A stretch of 64,000 nt of DNA, from NCBI RefSeq assembly GCF_026130545.1, contig NZ_JAMOIM010000019.1, positions 1 through 64,000 on the forward strand, written 5' to 3'. The translations under genes were made by a program, and so were the position numbers. This DNA is from Lichenifustis flavocetrariae (lineage in GTDB: Bacteria; Pseudomonadota; Alphaproteobacteria; Rhizobiales; Beijerinckiaceae). Every line of letters begins with the position of its first letter. Within the stretch, counting starts at the first letter, position 1. Of this stretch, positions 1,255 through 35,363 are shown in pieces. Below the pieces are notes generated by a model. The model saw only the letters and a program-made list of their open reading frames with translations, searched no databases and was not told the origin of the DNA.

Positions 1255-2055
1255 ATGAAAGTAGCTTTCGTCGAATGGCCAGAAGCGCTGCTGCCTGACA
1301 CGCCAGCTTGGACTGTCATCGCACGCCAGGTCGCCGCCTCGGGCGCGGAACTTTTGGTCACGAATGAACTCCCGTTTGGGCCATGGATCGCAGCTGGCGC
1401 GACGTTCGACAAAACCATGGCTCGGCGGAGCGTTGAATCCCATGAAGCCGGAATAGCAGCATTAGCCAAGCTCAACCTGCCTGCAGTCTTGTCTTCTCGG
1501 CCTATTTGGTTCGAGGAGCATCTGCTCAATGAGGCGTTTATCCTTTCTGATGGGCAAGTCCGGCCCGTCCACCAGAAGAACTATTTTCCTGAAGAAGAGG
1601 GTTGGTGGGAGGCATCTTGGTTCCATACCGTCCAGCACGGCTTCAGGGCTGCCGAAGTGCAAGGCTTGTGCCTTGGCGTGATGCTTTGCACTGATGCCAT
1701 GTTCAACGAACACGCACGACACTACGGGCGGCAAGGTACGAGCCTCATCGCCATCCCTCGTGCAGCCGGAATGGCCACGGAGAATTGGCTTACAGCCGGG
1801 AAAATGGCTGCGATTGTCTCGGGCAGCTATATCGTCAGTTCCAACCGGGTTGGAACATCTGACCAGGGAACGATCTTTGGGGGCGCCGGCTTCGCCTTTG
1901 GTCCAGACGGCTCCTTACTGGCAACGACGGATGCGCAGCGGCCACTGCTGGTCGTCGAAGTAGACCCTGAGCGATCCAGGCGTCAGCGGCTGGCCTACCC
2001 ATGCTATGTCGGACAACTCGCGGGCGGAGCCAGCCATTTGCTGCATCACTCTTGA
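1255..2055 (+). CDS. Carbon-nitrogen hydrolase (nitrilase superfamily)
   Basis: This is a 266-residue cytoplasmic enzyme of the nitrilase superfamily, which hydrolyses C-N bonds of nitriles, amides or carbamoyl groups through a thiol intermediate. The Glu-Lys-Cys triad is visible: Glu38 (TNELPFGPW), Lys108 (HQKNYFP) and Cys145 (VMLCTD). The ATG at 1255 is chosen because CGGAGG sits four bases upstream; the longer open frame from 526 overlaps the upstream genes. The short length and the FNEHAR segment after the Cys suggest an amidase-like branch rather than a true nitrilase. It is unrelated to the Nit1 nitrilase at 49392. Its 3' end overlaps the convergent methyltransferase frame by about 140 bp. 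Confidence 0.85.
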   Translation: MKVAFVEWPEALLPDTPAWTVIARQVAASGAELLVTNELPFGPWIAAGATFDKTMARRSVESHEAGIAALAKLNLPAVLSSRPIWFEEHLLNEAFILSDGQVRPVHQKNYFPEEEGWWEASWFHTVQHGFRAAEVQGLCLGVMLCTDAMFNEHARHYGRQGTSLIAIPRAAGMATENWLTAGKMAAIVSGSYIVSSNRVGTSDQGTIFGGAGFAFGPDGSLLATTDAQRPLLVVEVDPERSRRQRLAYPCYVGQLAGGASHLLHHS

Positions 2056-2706
2056 GTATTTCGCCGACATAGCCGGGGGTGGCCTGCTAACCTTCACCGC
2101 CTCCACCCACATGAATGCGGCCTCCTCGTTGTCTTGCTTTTCGATCACTGAATGGCGAACACGCAGCCCGGCATCTGCCAGCGACTGATAGGTTTCAGTC
2201 TCGCCAGCGTGGCCAAAGAACATCGTCGTTCCAAGCCAGTCACCCGTCCACTCTCCTGCTGGGCCGGTTCCGAAGCTTGCAATGAATGTTCCGCCTGGCC
2301 GGAGCCAATCGGCGATGCTGGCGATCATCGCCCCTTGTCGAGCCGGCGGAACATGCGTGATCGAGTAGAAGGCACCTACGGCGTCGAAGGAGCCGAGCCT
2401 GAAGGCTACCTTCGACATCTCTGCGACCAGGAATGAAGCCGAGGGTACGTTTTGGCGGGCTCTGACGATTTGCTGTCGCGACCCGTCAACGCCGACCACC
2501 GTATGTCCCGCAGCCGCCAGATCACGGGCAACCGGGAGCCCGGCACCACATCCCAGGTCGAGCACGCAACCGCCAGAGGCCGGCAATCTGCCGAGAAGGC
2601 GATCAAACCACTTCTGCCGCACCGTCGAGACGCCGAACCGTTCAAGGTAAGCATCTGCTATCTTGTCATAGCCCGACAGAACCAGATGTTGCTCATCGAT
2701 CGTCAT
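1915..2706 (-). CDS. Class I SAM-dependent methyltransferase
   Basis: The first 205 residues form a Rossmann-type methyltransferase. Motif I is VLDLGCGAGLPVA (about residues 48-60), the acidic loop is VVGVDGS, and a post-II region FDAVGAFYSITHVP and WLRPGGTF follow. It resembles small-molecule methyltransferases of the Methyltransf_11/25 type. The remaining 55 residues run antisense through the end of the nitrilase gene and look non-native, so the original stop has probably been lost or displaced near 2085. Methyl acceptor unknown. Confidence 0.75.
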   Translation of the reverse strand: MTIDEQHLVLSGYDKIADAYLERFGVSTVRQKWFDRLLGRLPASGGCVLDLGCGAGLPVARDLAAAGHTVVGVDGSRQQIVRARQNVPSASFLVAEMSKVAFRLGSFDAVGAFYSITHVPPARQGAMIASIADWLRPGGTFIASFGTGPAGEWTGDWLGTTMFFGHAGETETYQSLADAGLRVRHSVIEKQDNEEAAFMWVEAVKVSRPPPAMSAKYSRVMQQMAGSARELSDIAWVGQPLTPGSLRVYFDDQQWPLRIRRCQ

Positions 2707-2936: not shown

Positions 2937-3296
2937 TCATGGTTCGATCCGCTCGGCGATCTGATCCAGGATCAGACGGCCGGCGCGGCCGTCGTCGCCA
3001 GGCTCGAACGTCAGTTGCGCGCCCACGCATTTGTAGAAGAAGGTCCAGTCGGGTGTCGGGAACACGCGATAGGCCTTCTGCTCGCCCAGCTTGACCAGAA
3101 GCCCTCGATCGTCGGCGGTCACGTCGAAGATCTGTGGCGGCGTCAGTCGATGGCGCGCGGTCAGTCGGCGCAGTTGCGCGGGATCGACCGGAACCGCCGT
3201 GCGGTGCCACATCAGCTGAAAGCGGGGATCGAGGATGTGGATCCCGAGATCGGCCGTGCCACCCGCGTTGCCGATGATCACGATCCTGGCCATCAT
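2937..3296 (-). CDS. Small protein with a DUF3471-like beta domain
   Basis: A 119-residue protein. Residues 55-115 (DVTADDRGLLVKLG, then VFPTPDWTFFYK, then AQLTFEPGDDGRAGRL) resemble the C-terminal beta domain (DUF3471-like) found after serine hydrolase/beta-lactamase domains. Here the domain stands alone after a short N-terminal segment MARIVIIGNAGGTADLG. The start ATG overlaps the stop of the upstream fusion gene (ATGA, 3293-3296), so the two are probably co-translated. Function unknown, and the similarity is judged by eye. Confidence 0.55.
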   Translation of the reverse strand: MMARIVIIGNAGGTADLGIHILDPRFQLMWHRTAVPVDPAQLRRLTARHRLTPPQIFDVTADDRGLLVKLGEQKAYRVFPTPDWTFFYKCVGAQLTFEPGDDGRAGRLILDQIAERIEP

Positions 3297-4861
3297 GATT
3301 CCTCAATGGACCGCTCGGCGCTGGTTGTTCCTTGATGGAACAGCAGGCGCCACCCGGCTTCCGCCCGGATCCAGACCGAACTGCGAAGACTTTTCTTGTC
3401 GGCCGCGTCCGGCGTATGTCGAGAAACCCGATAGGTCACCAGCACCGCATCGGGGCCGAGGCGTCGGAACGTGAAATCCCCGGCCTCTCGCACGATCGTC
3501 CCGACGCTGTTCCCTTCGGCCGCAAGGCTCGATACCGTTGCCGACTTATCGAAGACCCGGCCGGAGCTGCCGAACTCGACGAAGTCGTCGTGCAGCAGGG
3601 TTGCCACCTCCTGGGCCGAAGCCCGTGTGCCTGCATCCAGGAGGCGCAACTCACCTGCCTTGATCGTCACCACGTCGTCGGTCGAATCTGCCGCCGCGCC
3701 CGAGGCGCGCGCCGCGACCTGCATCAACTCGATCCGGTTCCCGAACGGGTCGTCCACGTAGCGCCGGTCATAGCCATCGAGCGGCTCGTCCGCCCGGCAA
3801 AGGTACCCGGCCGCTTCGAGCCGGCTCACCAGTTCCGCAAGGTTCGGGATCAGCAGGGCGGGATGAGCCTTCCGCGCCGGGACGAAGTCGCAGTCGACGC
3901 CGAGGTGAAGCTTCGTGGCGCCGCCGACGAACCAGCAGCCTCCCCGGGCCGCGAGGTTGAAAGGCTTGGCGACTTCGGCCAAGCCGAGCAGGCCAGCGTA
4001 GAAGGTGCGGGCCTCGGCCTCCCGTCCCGGCGGCATGGCGAGTTGGACGTGGTCGAGGCTCGTCAATAGCGGTGCCGGTGGCTTGCGCGCCCGCATGTGC
4101 AGGAACAGGGGCACGACCGCCGTGTCGGCCACGATCGGCACGGTCCGGGCCAGCTTGGGGTCGGCCCGGGGTTCGCCCATCGCTTCGATCACCAAGCCGG
4201 TCCCGAGGATCATGGCGATCCACTCGGACAAGGTGCGGTGGAAGCGCGGCGTCCGAAAGGGTTCGACCTCATCCCGTTCAGCCTTGGGCAAGGTGGAGAA
4301 CCACCAGGTATCCTCCCGGCCGTCGATGCGGTGGAAATATCCCCCGAGTTCGACGCCGCGCACCCTTCCCTCGTCGTCCCGCAGCACCTTGCGGTGGGGC
4401 GGCATGAAGCAGGGGTGCAGAATGGAGAACTGGAGGAAGCCGCCGGGGCGCAGGACACGTGCCGCTTCCCGCAGAGCTTGACCAGGGTCCGGCATGTCCA
4501 TCAGCGACATGAAGGCCGTGGCGAAGTCGAAGCCGCCGTCCTTGAACGGCAGCGATAGACCATCGCCGAGCGTGAACGTGATGCCGAGCGGATCGGCGGC
4601 TTCAGCCTCTTGCGCGTGGCGGATGAAAGTCGGTGCGATGTCGACGGCACGCATGCAGGCGCCGCGCCGGACGAGCTGCCGGGTGTTGGAACCCTCGCCA
4701 CAGCCGATGTCGAGGCCGACAAGACCGTCGACGGGCGGCAGCATGGCCAAGAAGGTGGGCGTGTTCAGCGCGTCGCGATAGACGTCGAGCCCACGCCTGG
4801 CATGACGAGTCCATGTCTCGGCGTTCGCCTCCCATGCCCTTGCGACGTCGTCGGGCTTCAT
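3293..4861 (-). CDS. Methyltransferase-glyoxalase-NTF2 fusion protein
   Basis: The 522-residue product has three recognisable domains. Residues about 1-265 are a class I SAM methyltransferase (GLDIGCGEGSNT motif I, DLxPPF-like loop, ARVLRPGG). Residues about 265-385 are a VOC/glyoxalase-type domain (SLDHVQLAMPPG, FYAGLLGL, YVDDPFGNRIELMQ). Residues about 395-515 are a DUF4440/NTF2-like domain (LRLLDAGTRAS, LLHDDFVEFGSSG, WRLLFHQGT). The ATG at 4861 has GGAGG four bases upstream and is preferred over the in-frame start at 4981. The three domains are usually separate proteins, so the fusion is unusual. Modification or detoxification of a small molecule is plausible, but the substrate is unknown. 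Confidence 0.85.
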   Translation of the reverse strand: MKPDDVARAWEANAETWTRHARRGLDVYRDALNTPTFLAMLPPVDGLVGLDIGCGEGSNTRQLVRRGACMRAVDIAPTFIRHAQEAEAADPLGITFTLGDGLSLPFKDGGFDFATAFMSLMDMPDPGQALREAARVLRPGGFLQFSILHPCFMPPHRKVLRDDEGRVRGVELGGYFHRIDGREDTWWFSTLPKAERDEVEPFRTPRFHRTLSEWIAMILGTGLVIEAMGEPRADPKLARTVPIVADTAVVPLFLHMRARKPPAPLLTSLDHVQLAMPPGREAEARTFYAGLLGLAEVAKPFNLAARGGCWFVGGATKLHLGVDCDFVPARKAHPALLIPNLAELVSRLEAAGYLCRADEPLDGYDRRYVDDPFGNRIELMQVAARASGAAADSTDDVVTIKAGELRLLDAGTRASAQEVATLLHDDFVEFGSSGRVFDKSATVSSLAAEGNSVGTIVREAGDFTFRRLGPDAVLVTYRVSRHTPDAADKKSLRSSVWIRAEAGWRLLFHQGTTSAERSIEES

Positions 4862-5024
4862 CGCGCCTCCGTCCATCGTCAAGGAACAGCATGGATCCCT
4901 CGACGTCAAGATCGACCAATCTGCCCGACTTACAGTTGCCCGATGATGACTGCCGGTCGCCGAGCGTAGTCGGGTGGGCAAGGTCGACTTCCTGCGATTG
5001 GCGAGTGAGCCAGTTCACTCAATG

Positions 5025-5759
5025 AGGCAGTTGCAGAAAAAAGAAGCCGAGCAGACCAAATAGAGGAACAACGCCGCCGATCATTTTAGCGAGGCGGAGG
5101 ACCTTGAGCGTACTCACGGCGTCGGCATGGCGTGCGGTCCTGGACAAGGCGTACTGGAGAACAGGCAATTCCGCGATAGCCATCGGTCTTCAAGCGGATT
5201 TGGATGGAAGCGAGCCGGAAGGCCGATCGCAATGGAGCCCTCGATCGTCGCTCGCCGCACGGCGGTCGAAGAAGTGCCTTCTATGACAGCGCTCCGCACC
5301 TGGGCACCCCCATCTTCGGGCGCCCGCAAGCCGATTCGGATATGCCGTGTGCCGGGGCCGATCTACCTTCATCGTGACTGCCGGCGTCGCGCCAAGCAAG
5401 ATGCGCGCGGGATCACATCGATCCCCCTGCCGTCAGCCAGCGAACAATCGCGCGCGATCCTTCGGATCACGTGGGCTGGATCGTCGAAGGTTGGGAACCG
5501 CTGAAAGGCACCGACTCGCATGAGGAAGAGCCTACCACCCCGCCGCTGGCGATTAAGCGATGCCTGTCACGCCACTCGCCGGAAGCGCAAACCGTCATCT
5601 GGGTCTCACTACCGAATGGCCTTGCTTTGCCGCCCGCATAGTCCGGAGAGCACGAGACCGGCGCCGCTGCCGGTGCCCGAACGACTTCCCGTCGATTTCC
5701 ACCTTTCTCTCAGGCCCCGCAAAGCACGCGGTAAACGAACATCCCGTTCAACGGAATGA
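5025..5759. other. Stretch without a confident gene; possible gene remnant
   Basis: No intact gene is seen. On the + strand a frame without an ATG from about 5380 to 5641 reads DHVGWIVEGWEPLKGTDSH and onwards with coding-like composition. This could be the tail of a lost gene, but I do not recognise it. The rest shows no sustained coding pattern. Confidence 0.35.
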
Positions 5760-5809: not shown

Positions 5810-5836
5810 TCGCACATGCATTCCGGAGAGCGCGAT

Positions 5837-6499
5837 ATGTCCGATTTCCTGACCAAACCCTGCACGGCTTTCGTTGCCCAGCAATTGCTGTTTTCCGGGC
5901 CGCTGGCTGAGGTGGCTATTGCGGTCGCGCGATCAGCTGGCATGGGCGATGCTGGTCTCGTGTTTGACGATGCGACAGGCTGCATCGTCGATCTCGATCT
6001 ACGCGGCAGCGATACGGAGATCATTGAGCGGCTGTCCGAGCTTACGATACCGCATGTGGGTCGCTATCGCCCCAAAGCCGGCGAGACCTCCGACTCAGCG
6101 GCGCCGAAGGACGGACAGAGAGGCCGCGGGCGGCCGAAATTGGGAGTCGTCGCGCGCGAGGTGACCCTGCTGCCGCGCCAATGGGAGTGGCTGGCGGCTC
6201 AGACGGGTGGCGCGTCCGCAACGCTGAGGCGTCTTGTCGAGCATGCCCGCAAGGCGACGGATCCGCGCCAACACAGACGGGTGGCGCAGGAGGCCGCGTA
6301 TCGGTTCATGCAGGCGATCGCCGGTGACCTGCCCGGCTACGAGGAAGCGACGCGCGCCCTTTTCGCGGACGACCAGTTCGCGTTGGAGGAACGGATCGCC
6401 GCTTGGCCGGAGGACATCCGGACCTATGCCCTGCGCCTCGCCTTCGACTCTTCCGCTCACCCGGATCAAGACCAAACAGCGGGGCTAGAACGCCAATGA
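5837..6499 (+). CDS. DUF2239 family protein
   Basis: A protein of about 220 residues matching the DUF2239 family pattern: N-terminal LTKPCTAFVAQQLLFSGPLAEVA, a DLDLRGSDTEI strand, then GRPKLGVVAREVTLLPRQWEWLAAQTGGASATLRRLVE, an arc-like DNA-binding-type segment, and a helical C-terminus. ATG 5837 is preferred because GGAGAG lies seven bases upstream. An in-frame ATG at 5816 is only seven bases after the -10 and would need leaderless translation. It is first in an operon with DUF1330 and a broken hydrolase, with ATGA overlaps. Biochemical role unknown; the AAs resembling a ribbon-helix region hint at regulation. Confidence 0.8.
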   Translation: MSDFLTKPCTAFVAQQLLFSGPLAEVAIAVARSAGMGDAGLVFDDATGCIVDLDLRGSDTEIIERLSELTIPHVGRYRPKAGETSDSAAPKDGQRGRGRPKLGVVAREVTLLPRQWEWLAAQTGGASATLRRLVEHARKATDPRQHRRVAQEAAYRFMQAIAGDLPGYEEATRALFADDQFALEERIAAWPEDIRTYALRLAFDSSAHPDQDQTAGLERQ

Positions 6500-31684: not shown

Positions 31685-32425
31685 ATGACGTACATCCACC
31701 TCGATCATGCTTCGGTCGAGATCCCCATCTACAATTCCCGCGGACGTTCGCTGAAGGCGGCTCTGTTGCGGCAGGTCGGTGGGGCTGTCGAGGCGAACAG
31801 CCGTGACGTCGTCACCGTCAAGGCACTGCAGGATATCAGTTTGCGCCTGGAGCCCGGGGCGCGGCTCGCGTTGATCGGGCATAATGGAGCAGGCAAATCC
31901 ACCCTGCTGCGCGTCTTCGCCGGTGCCTATGAGCCGACGAGCGGCCACGCCGAAATTCACGGTTCGATCTCGTCCCTGTTGGACATGACGATGGGGATGG
32001 ATGCCGAATTGACCGGCGCGGAGAATATCATCCTGCGTGGCGCCTTCGTGGGCATGAGTCTGAAAGAGGCACAGAACCGCGTCGATGAGATAGCCGACTT
32101 CTCCGAACTCGGGCCCTACCTGCACCTGCCCCTGCGCACCTATTCGAGTGGCATGACGCTACGGCTCGCCTTTGCGATTTCCACCACACGGGCTCCAGAC
32201 ATTCTCTTGTTGGATGAACTGATCAGCGTTGGCGACGCGGCCTTTGCGTTGAAGGCGCAGATGCGAATCCAAAAGCTGATCGACAAGGCCGGCATCCTCG
32301 TCCTGGCCTCTCACGACATTAAAACGCTCAAGCGGTATTGTGACACGGCCATTATGCTGCAAAGCGGCCGGATCGTGGCGCAGGGAACGATCGACGAGGT
32401 ACTGGAGCGCTACGCTTCGCCGTGA
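31685..32425 (+). CDS. ABC transporter ATP-binding protein (Wzt-like)
   Basis: A 246-residue ATPase partner of the upstream permease. Walker A is GHNGAGKST, the signature is the degenerate TYSSGMTLRLAFA, and Walker B is ILLLDELISVGD, which are hallmarks of KpsT/Wzt-type exporters. It lacks the C-terminal carbohydrate-binding domain of some Wzt proteins. The start is an ATG shortly after the permease stop. Confidence 0.9.
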   Translation: MTYIHLDHASVEIPIYNSRGRSLKAALLRQVGGAVEANSRDVVTVKALQDISLRLEPGARLALIGHNGAGKSTLLRVFAGAYEPTSGHAEIHGSISSLLDMTMGMDAELTGAENIILRGAFVGMSLKEAQNRVDEIADFSELGPYLHLPLRTYSSGMTLRLAFAISTTRAPDILLLDELISVGDAAFALKAQMRIQKLIDKAGILVLASHDIKTLKRYCDTAIMLQSGRIVAQGTIDEVLERYASP

Positions 32426-32474
32426 GCGTCGAGGACACCGTCACACAACACGGCTCTTTGGCATCGAAGTGGCT

Positions 32475-32497
32475 GCCCGGCTCCGCAGCGGGCTTTT
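32475..32497 (+). terminator. Rho-independent-like terminator after the exporter operon
   Basis: GCCCG (32475-32479) pairs with CGGGC (32489-32493), with additional GCTGC/GCAGC pairing possible, followed by TTTT. It lies 50 bp past the Wzt-like stop. Confidence 0.6.
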
Positions 32498-32719
32498 GAT
32501 CGCTGCGATCGGATTAGACGCGGCCGGATCAATCGAGGATCGGACACACTGCCGCATGCGATCGCTACACTCTGTGAAAGCTTACGCAACTTCTTAAGTC
32601 GTCCAGAACTTCAAGGATAGCACCGACTTCAAGAGGCGTATGGGTCTGCGCCCCGCACCTGGTGCGTCCGGGCTAGGTCGACGCCGGCTGGCCGGCGCTG
32701 AGGACAAGGATTCGGTCGC

Positions 32720-34075
32720 GTGACTTCGAGCGTAGAAACGTGGTTCAGGCAAACCGTCAAGAGATCGGCGTCAGCTGCGCTCATCGTCGCGATTCCGGCC
32801 AACAATGAGGCCGATCGAATCGAGGCGTGCCTCGCGGCCCTTGCGATGCAGCGCGACCACTATGGAGCTCCCCTGGCCGAGGGTTCCTTCGAGGTTCTGC
32901 TTTTCGCGAACAATTGCAGCGATACGACCGTCGAGCTTGCGAATGCCATCGCGGCCGCCGTGCCGTATCGGCTGCATGTCATCGAAGAGACGCTTTCTCC
33001 GGAGATGTCCAACGCCGGCCGCGCCCGCAAACGCGCCATGGATCTTGCAGCCGAGCATCTCGAACGGGCTGAGGTCCCTTACGGCGCCATTCTGACAACG
33101 GATGCGGACAGTCGCGTCGGCCCGACATGGGTCAGTGCAACCCGCGAGGCGCTTGCCAAGGGTGTGGACTGCGTGGCCGGCTATATCGACGCCGATCCAG
33201 CCGAGATCATCCGGCTCGGCTCGGATTTCCTGAAGCGGGGGCGGCTCGAAGACCGCTATCTTCGTCTCATCGCCGAGATCGAAGCCCGCGGCGATCCCCG
33301 ACCTCATGATCCCTGGCCCAACCATCGCGTGTCTTCTGGCGCGAGCCTTGCCGTTTCGCTTGCTGCCTACCGAGCAATCGGCGGACTACCGCCTCTCGCC
33401 CTGGGTGAAGATGCCGCTCTGACGCGGCGCCTCGAGGCGAGCGGTTTCCTGGTCAGACACACGATGGAGGTCCACGTGACGACCTCCTGTCGTTTCGACG
33501 GACGTGCCGCCGGTGGCGCTGCCGATACGATGAGGTTTCGCCACGAGAACCAGGACGCGCCCTGCGATGCGAGCTTCGAGCCCGCGCTCGCGGCGACACG
33601 ACGCGCTCTAATCAAAGGAAGGTTACGTCGTCGGTGGGGCCTGCAGCCATCGTTCTCCCAAGTGGGCCAAATGCTCGCCCTCACGGACGGCATTTTGAAC
33701 ACTATGGCGGTCAGCCATCGAGCTTCCGGATTCGATGATTTCTGGGAGGCGGTCGAAGCTTTGAGTCCAGTGCTCCAGCGGCGACACGAACTGCGCCCAT
33801 CGGGCCTTCCGAACGAAATCAGACGCGCCGAACAGGTTCTTCGGGCTCTAAAGGCCAACTTCGAGCCACCGAAGGCACGGGAGACGATAGATGTCCCTCA
33901 GCGCAATCATGTGAGTAGATCCACGTTTGCGCCTGACTTAGATGCACAGGTCGGTGACCTTCAGTCCGGTGAGGGGATCATTCGTCTCCGCACGCCAATG
34001 GCGCAGGGCGATCTCGCCGCCGGGCACCAGACTCCTGAAACAGCCGGCAACGACATCGGCGAAATCTTCGGCTGA
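32720..34075 (+). CDS. Family 2 glycosyltransferase
   Basis: A 451-residue GT-A-fold glycosyltransferase. ALIVAIPANNEADRIEACLAAL opens the domain, ILTTDADSRVGPTWV contains the DxD-like metal site, and RVSSGASLAVSLAAYRAIGGLPPLALGEDAALTRRLEASG includes the ED acceptor motif. The start is GTG 32720. The C-terminal 60 residues after about 33890 look less like the family and may be read-through. It probably adds sugar to the glycan exported by the Wzm/Wzt-like pair upstream, though the 295-bp gap suggests its own promoter. Confidence 0.85.
   Translation: MTSSVETWFRQTVKRSASAALIVAIPANNEADRIEACLAALAMQRDHYGAPLAEGSFEVLLFANNCSDTTVELANAIAAAVPYRLHVIEETLSPEMSNAGRARKRAMDLAAEHLERAEVPYGAILTTDADSRVGPTWVSATREALAKGVDCVAGYIDADPAEIIRLGSDFLKRGRLEDRYLRLIAEIEARGDPRPHDPWPNHRVSSGASLAVSLAAYRAIGGLPPLALGEDAALTRRLEASGFLVRHTMEVHVTTSCRFDGRAAGGAADTMRFRHENQDAPCDASFEPALAATRRALIKGRLRRRWGLQPSFSQVGQMLALTDGILNTMAVSHRASGFDDFWEAVEALSPVLQRRHELRPSGLPNEIRRAEQVLRALKANFEPPKARETIDVPQRNHVSRSTFAPDLDAQVGDLQSGEGIIRLRTPMAQGDLAAGHQTPETAGNDIGEIFG

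Positions 34076-35286: not shown

Positions 35287-35363
<77 letters not shown>

Follow-up and report, generated by a model that had tools for sequence, protein, structure and literature searches.

We analysed a stretch of 64,000 nucleotides from Lichenifustis flavocetrariae (hereafter the window), in which a single long reading frame joins a SAM methyltransferase (MT), a VOC/glyoxalase domain and a DUF4440/NTF2 domain, and found that the joint between MT and VOC is either a private change or an assembly error, and not the mark of a conserved channelling enzyme. The reading that we favour, with a probability of roughly 0.66, is that the frame arose through a recent, private merger of neighbouring genes, when one base was inserted where a stop and a start overlapped. 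The first-pass annotation had proposed that the fusion marks one metabolic channel. That proposal was not borne out, as the relatives examined are free-standing and a single base at the joint sets the window copy apart from an unfused one in the same assembly.

The frame comprises 522 codons followed by TGA and runs from window position 4861 to 3293 on the minus strand; reading of the plus strand meets stops. It begins with an ATG at 4861, with GGAGG four bases 5' of this codon, and ends with a TGA at 3295-3293. The same annotation had described one frame of 522 codons with MT, VOC and DUF4440/NTF2 domains, and a Pfam search bore this out, with all three domains scoring above their cut-offs: Methyltransf_11 at 82.5 bits (cut-off 21.2), Glyoxalase (PF00903) at 21.3 bits, barely above its cut-off of 20.6, and DUF4440 (PF14534) at 56.6 bits (cut-off 25.2). 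Translation of the minus strand likewise upheld the claim that the assembled frame crosses the domains uninterrupted, with no in-frame stop between MT, VOC and NTF2. The parts of the frame are as follows.

4067..4861, minus strand: methyltransferase part, residues 1-265, with Methyltransf_11 at 50-143; on contig C113 the counterpart stands alone, as a frame of 265 aa closed by TGA
4064..4070, minus strand: MT/VOC joint, CTA TTG, residues 265-266; the sole gap in the coding alignment of the copies
3698..4066, minus strand: VOC/glyoxalase part, residues 266-388, with Glyoxalase at 271-379; matched by 2qqz
3293..3697, minus strand: DUF4440/NTF2 part, residues 389-522 plus the stop, with DUF4440 at 401-506

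Chance is excluded as the source of a 522-codon frame with three database domains. The first part belongs to the class I SAM-dependent methyltransferases by its Methyltransf_11 score and its SAM motif; it contains LDIGCGEG, which we take to be the glycine-rich SAM motif of this class, and C54 and E56 are kept in 68/68 relatives. The middle part belongs to the VOC/glyoxalase superfamily by its PF00903 score and by its H, H and E residues. H271, H319, H333 and E378 are kept in 41/41 relatives, and H271, H319 and E378 are presumably the metal-site residues. The VOC domain is also backed by a solved VOC protein, 2qqz (E 1.5e-27, with nearly the whole middle part aligned). The last part belongs to DUF4440 (PF14534) by its Pfam score, and it had no match among solved structures at E <= 0.01. 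The fused protein is presumably made and may fold and be active, with no linker between MT and VOC.

A search of the organism's own genome (7.5 Mb in 180 contigs, 99.72% complete) revealed a second copy at positions 32041-33605 of contig C113 (G000:C113). The contig that carries the window and C113 likely come from one organism, although the assembly is rated 3.04% contaminated. The second copy consists of two frames, one covering residues 1-267 (32041-32841) and the other residues 262-522 (32823-33605). Over the coding sequence the two copies are approximately 97% identical, with agreement at 764/786 bases in MT, 359/369 in VOC and 394/402 in NTF2, and the sole gap in the 1.57 kb alignment is one base at window position 4067, C113 being the shorter. 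The window joint reads CCG CTA TTG ACG AGC (P L L T S). At the corresponding place C113 reads TCG CTC TGA, a stop, such that its MT is a protein of 265 aa that ends in ARKPPASL, and its VOC part goes on in another frame from CTG ACG AGC. The MT-VOC frame is private to the window copy and the sister copy is split at the MT/VOC border; the VOC-NTF2 join is common to both.

In mechanistic terms, we can best say that three proteins of small-molecule type, encoded by a coupled operon, would have become one polypeptide in the window copy. The ancestral operon, now held twice in the assembly, would have had the order MT, VOC-NTF2, P-loop kinase, with each start overlapping the preceding stop as ATGA. 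In the window copy, one T would have been inserted in the MT/VOC overlap, changing CTATGACG to CTATTGACG; the inserted T would abolish the MT stop and make the VOC start ATG an internal TTG, giving a protein of 522 aa. In C113, the overlap would have kept its TGA, and the VOC start would have become CTG through one A-to-C change. Termination-reinitiation would in this way be replaced by one polypeptide in which the domains are fixed at 1:1:1, most likely as three nearly independent domains tethered end to end, the first a SAM methyltransferase of the small-molecule kind, the second a VOC domain with a metal site and the third an NTF2 fold. TTG266 has no evident ribosome-binding motif in front of it, which is what a coupled start would lead one to expect, and the NTF2/kinase border is still an ATGA overlap (TCATGATGG). 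From the two copies and the free-standing relatives we infer the order of these events and an ATGA ancestor at the MT/VOC border (CTATGACG), a state present in no sequence examined. The inserted T is presumably a real mutation; note that the sequence would look no different if the assembly were wrong by one base.

In prokaryotes, unidirectional gene pairs are far more often spaced by a 4-nt or a 1-nt overlap than in any other way, and these short overlaps couple translation (PMC10666635). A change of frame between neighbouring genes that have fused homologues in another genome is a recognised case (PMC3711429). In overlapping, translationally coupled pairs that are fused in some genomes, the stop of the first gene and the start of the second coincide, as we propose for MT and VOC. 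Relative to such coupled pairs, the present case differs in that the fused and unfused forms stand in one assembly and are approximately 97% identical.

We compared the joint with the natural gene ends of free-standing relatives drawn from the genus, family, genome-contig and order searches. (The window's own row, L143, was removed, and the ends of the relatives are mechanical extrapolations from tblastn matches.) The last residue before the stop fell at the equivalent of window residues 261-266 in 63 of the 69 MT relatives; five of the others end at 269-273, and the sixth, L078, is a 492-aa frame that runs through masked letters and was counted as not ending at 261-266 and dropped from the residue-conservation alignment. 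Among the VOC relatives, the nearest start codon lies at 263-266 in 39/41 and the end at 383-389 in 35/41. Thus, the MT/VOC joint coincides with a natural gene border. The VOC-NTF2 joint, though present in both copies, is also near natural gene ends, with the nearest start at 388-390 in 11/19 NTF2 relatives.

The closest listed of the free-standing class I methyltransferases (Methyltransf_11 proteins of Bosea, Rhizobium and others) are 57-73% identical to the window MT over approximately residues 1-263, and they share its start and almost its end; unlike the window protein, they mostly stop at the border (the 63/69 above) and have no adjoining VOC or NTF2 match. Free-standing VOC/glyoxalase proteins of approximately 120-130 aa are up to 69% identical to the window VOC and carry H, H and E at the same positions (2qqz included), but, unlike the window VOC, they have an ATG or GTG start of their own and no adjoining MT or NTF2 match. 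At the order level, DUF4440/NTF2-like relatives (PF14534) are up to 47% identical to the window NTF2 and differ from it in that the 18 that were read out stand alone as proteins of 100-129 aa.

Among the matches listed in the genus, family, genome-contig, plasmid and class searches, no other genome or plasmid carried the MT-VOC joint. (The searches were sampled, such that a diverged or unlisted fusion could escape.) Within the genus, three of six genomes gave a match, these being the organism's own genome, one with MT only (73%) and one with VOC only (63%). Within the family, 72/397 genomes matched at E <= 1e-30, with the three best candidates scored per genome; ten genomes other than that of the window listed both MT and VOC matches, on different contigs in eight (which, in draft genomes, is no proof of distance) and more than 2 Mb apart in two. 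A scan of genome contigs with six patterns gave 493 stretches encoding a relative. Among the best 80 of these 493, which were examined, one row (L045, query 1-307) passes the MT/VOC border, through a stop that comes soon after MT and with unrelated sequence beyond, and was rejected as an MT-VOC fusion; another (L092, 172-411) runs backwards from VOC through stops. We also rejected G201 (3-313), with three stops in the stretch, and G357:C57 (241-383), with one. A tblastn search with the three parts over the gathered sequences (flanks of up to 4 kb for contig-scan loci and 1.5 kb for family loci) gave a domain match in 120, with MT only in 74, VOC only in 41 and all three in five; these five are the window, the locus L001 that corresponds to it and three loci that belong to the C113 copy. 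Matches were found in 440 of 72,556 plasmid records, and at no place did a match reach 80% of the query (51% coverage in the best of the 15 rows shown). In the class, the VOC-NTF2 part matched 24/385 genomes at E <= 1e-15, and at no listed place outside the organism's own genome did VOC and NTF2 occur together. L113 (265-461) was rejected as a VOC-NTF2 protein, there being no NTF2 match at E <= 1e-3; its 244-aa frame runs on into a different-looking C-terminal region. No paper on a fusion of MT, glyoxalase and DUF4440 or NTF2-like domains was found in open-licence PMC text. The combination had been called unfamiliar, and it is indeed unusual, mainly because it is private.

Comparison of the two copies gave non-synonymous/synonymous changes of 8/14 for MT (dN/dS 0.187, neutral binomial p 1.7e-4), 3/7 for VOC (0.146, p 0.0047) and 5/3 for NTF2 (0.588, p 0.35). 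The departure of MT and VOC from neutrality argues that these parts have been under constraint during some or all of the time that the copies have been apart; given the p value of 0.35 for NTF2, this claim covers MT and VOC only. In the window MT, A64V stands against A in 69/69 relatives, and D177H, V219L and E236K depart from the commonest residue. C113 departs at A86T in MT, at Q273L in VOC (Q in 41/41 relatives) and in its CTG start. At five positions (3, 40 and 256 in MT, 301 and 316 in VOC) the changes could not be polarised. Because the window MT has V64 and lies in a decaying block (see below), a loss of MT function in the window copy is possible. We have also entertained the idea, speculative and rather doubtful, that one inserted base gave rise to a newborn working three-domain enzyme in a cell that holds a sister operon, approximately 97% identical and unfused, with a weakened VOC start, and that the copies may split the work. 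MT is better kept in C113 and VOC better kept in the window, and these numbers are too small for a claim.

The main rival to a recent merger is an error of sequencing or assembly, in which case the true window sequence would have an ATGA overlap between separate genes and the cell would contain no such long frame. The joint hangs on one base whose removal restores the ancestral overlap that we propose, fusion is absent from both the sister copy and the free-standing relatives, and the locus was chosen for being a fusion, a choice that favours errors. However, the extra base lies outside any long homopolymer (CTATTGACG), and a one-base gap occurs only here in the coding alignment, which argues that the sequence is not error-ridden at this place; we consider such an error unlikely, though it deserves real weight. 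We give much less credence to a fusion older than the duplication, in which the loss of one base later exposed a hidden TGA and split C113 again. When the copies alone are considered, a fused ancestor is as parsimonious as one with an ATGA overlap, each needing two changes, and C113 is also without a normal VOC start, having CTG. Only the free-standing relatives, as outgroups, disfavour the fused ancestor, since they add a further, earlier fusion event; among the matches listed, no third genome showed the fused form.

Least probable, in our estimation, is a true channelling enzyme, in which MT, VOC and NTF2 serve one pathway and their fusion was selected. Such an enzyme would fit the surplus of synonymous changes that separates the two copies in MT and VOC, the active-site residues that are kept and the fact that the genes are already neighbours in the sister copy. 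Against these points, the joint is not conserved, the ten family genomes that have both MT and VOC carry them at a distance or on separate contigs, and the neighbouring genes in the block have decayed. A conserved channelling fusion would show the same joint in several genomes; among the matches listed no second genome with the joint was found, and we do not favour this explanation. A recent private merger remains our preferred reading. Its biochemical weight is small, as it concerns three common protein families that share a frame in one draft genome. It does offer a neat example of a fused and an unfused form, one base apart in length at the joint, that can be compared within one assembly, and it carries the caution that a single fused frame is no proof of a metabolic channel and that an unfused sister copy should be looked for first.

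The window copy lies in a larger block that can be aligned with C113, with the following features around the 522-codon frame.

3258..3296, minus strand: start of a P-loop kinase gene, cut inside the P-loop after 13 residues; the full 175-aa frame is in C113
2937..3257, minus strand: tail of a beta-lactamase-family serine hydrolase (DUF3471-like), in frame with the kinase start; 84% identical to C113:35126-35468
4862..5032, minus strand: upstream non-coding stretch that shares high identity with C113, 95-97% per 60 bases, then 62-72%
5140..5542, minus strand: three short relics collinear with C113:25921-31688, in pieces 80-85% identical

The first-pass annotation had placed a coupled small DUF3471-like protein downstream of the fusion. 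The overlap stands, in that a frame of 119 aa (2937-3296) shares an ATGA with the NTF2 stop; the DUF3471 assignment does not, as the frame scored 19.2 bits against DUF3471 (PF11954), below the cut-off of 29.3. The small protein is instead a deletion chimera of two unrelated genes, with approximately 1.48 kb lost relative to C113. There, the P-loop kinase starts in an ATGA overlap and matches AAA_18, AAA_33 and AAA_28, all below their cut-offs, and the hydrolase counterpart is a 410-aa frame with a Beta-lactamase (PF00144) match of 185.9 bits. The C113 hydrolase changes frame near its 3' end, and its match with the window tail is divided between two frames, which meet at 35330.

As a whole, window 2945-5542 corresponds to five collinear pieces of C113:25921-35468, with C113 sequence missing between them, and has the appearance of a shrunken relic, an island in decay. 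(A 38-base match out of line with these pieces joins window 2960-2924 to C113:1030-993.) Identity to C113 is uneven across the block: per 60 bases it amounts to 93-100% in window 5032-3258, a stretch that takes in approximately 170 bases of upstream non-coding sequence, it falls to 62-72% (gaps counted) just upstream of 5032, and the four other pieces are 80-85% identical. Such a sharp step at the block edge suggests that 5032-3258 was either homogenised later, as a gene-conversion tract, or acquired separately.

Around the sister copy (L009:11509-19133, approximately 26.5-34.1 kb of C113) lies a run of small-molecule-type genes encoding a carbon-nitrogen hydrolase, a GNAT acetyltransferase, an alpha/beta hydrolase, an APH-family phosphotransferase, GrpB, MT, VOC-NTF2 and the P-loop kinase. 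In the window, a second SAM methyltransferase (1915-2706, minus strand; Methyltransf_25, 65.5 bits) is located just downstream of the chimeric frame, and a full-length DUF2239 gene (5816-6499, plus strand; 250.2 bits) sits beside the decayed block.
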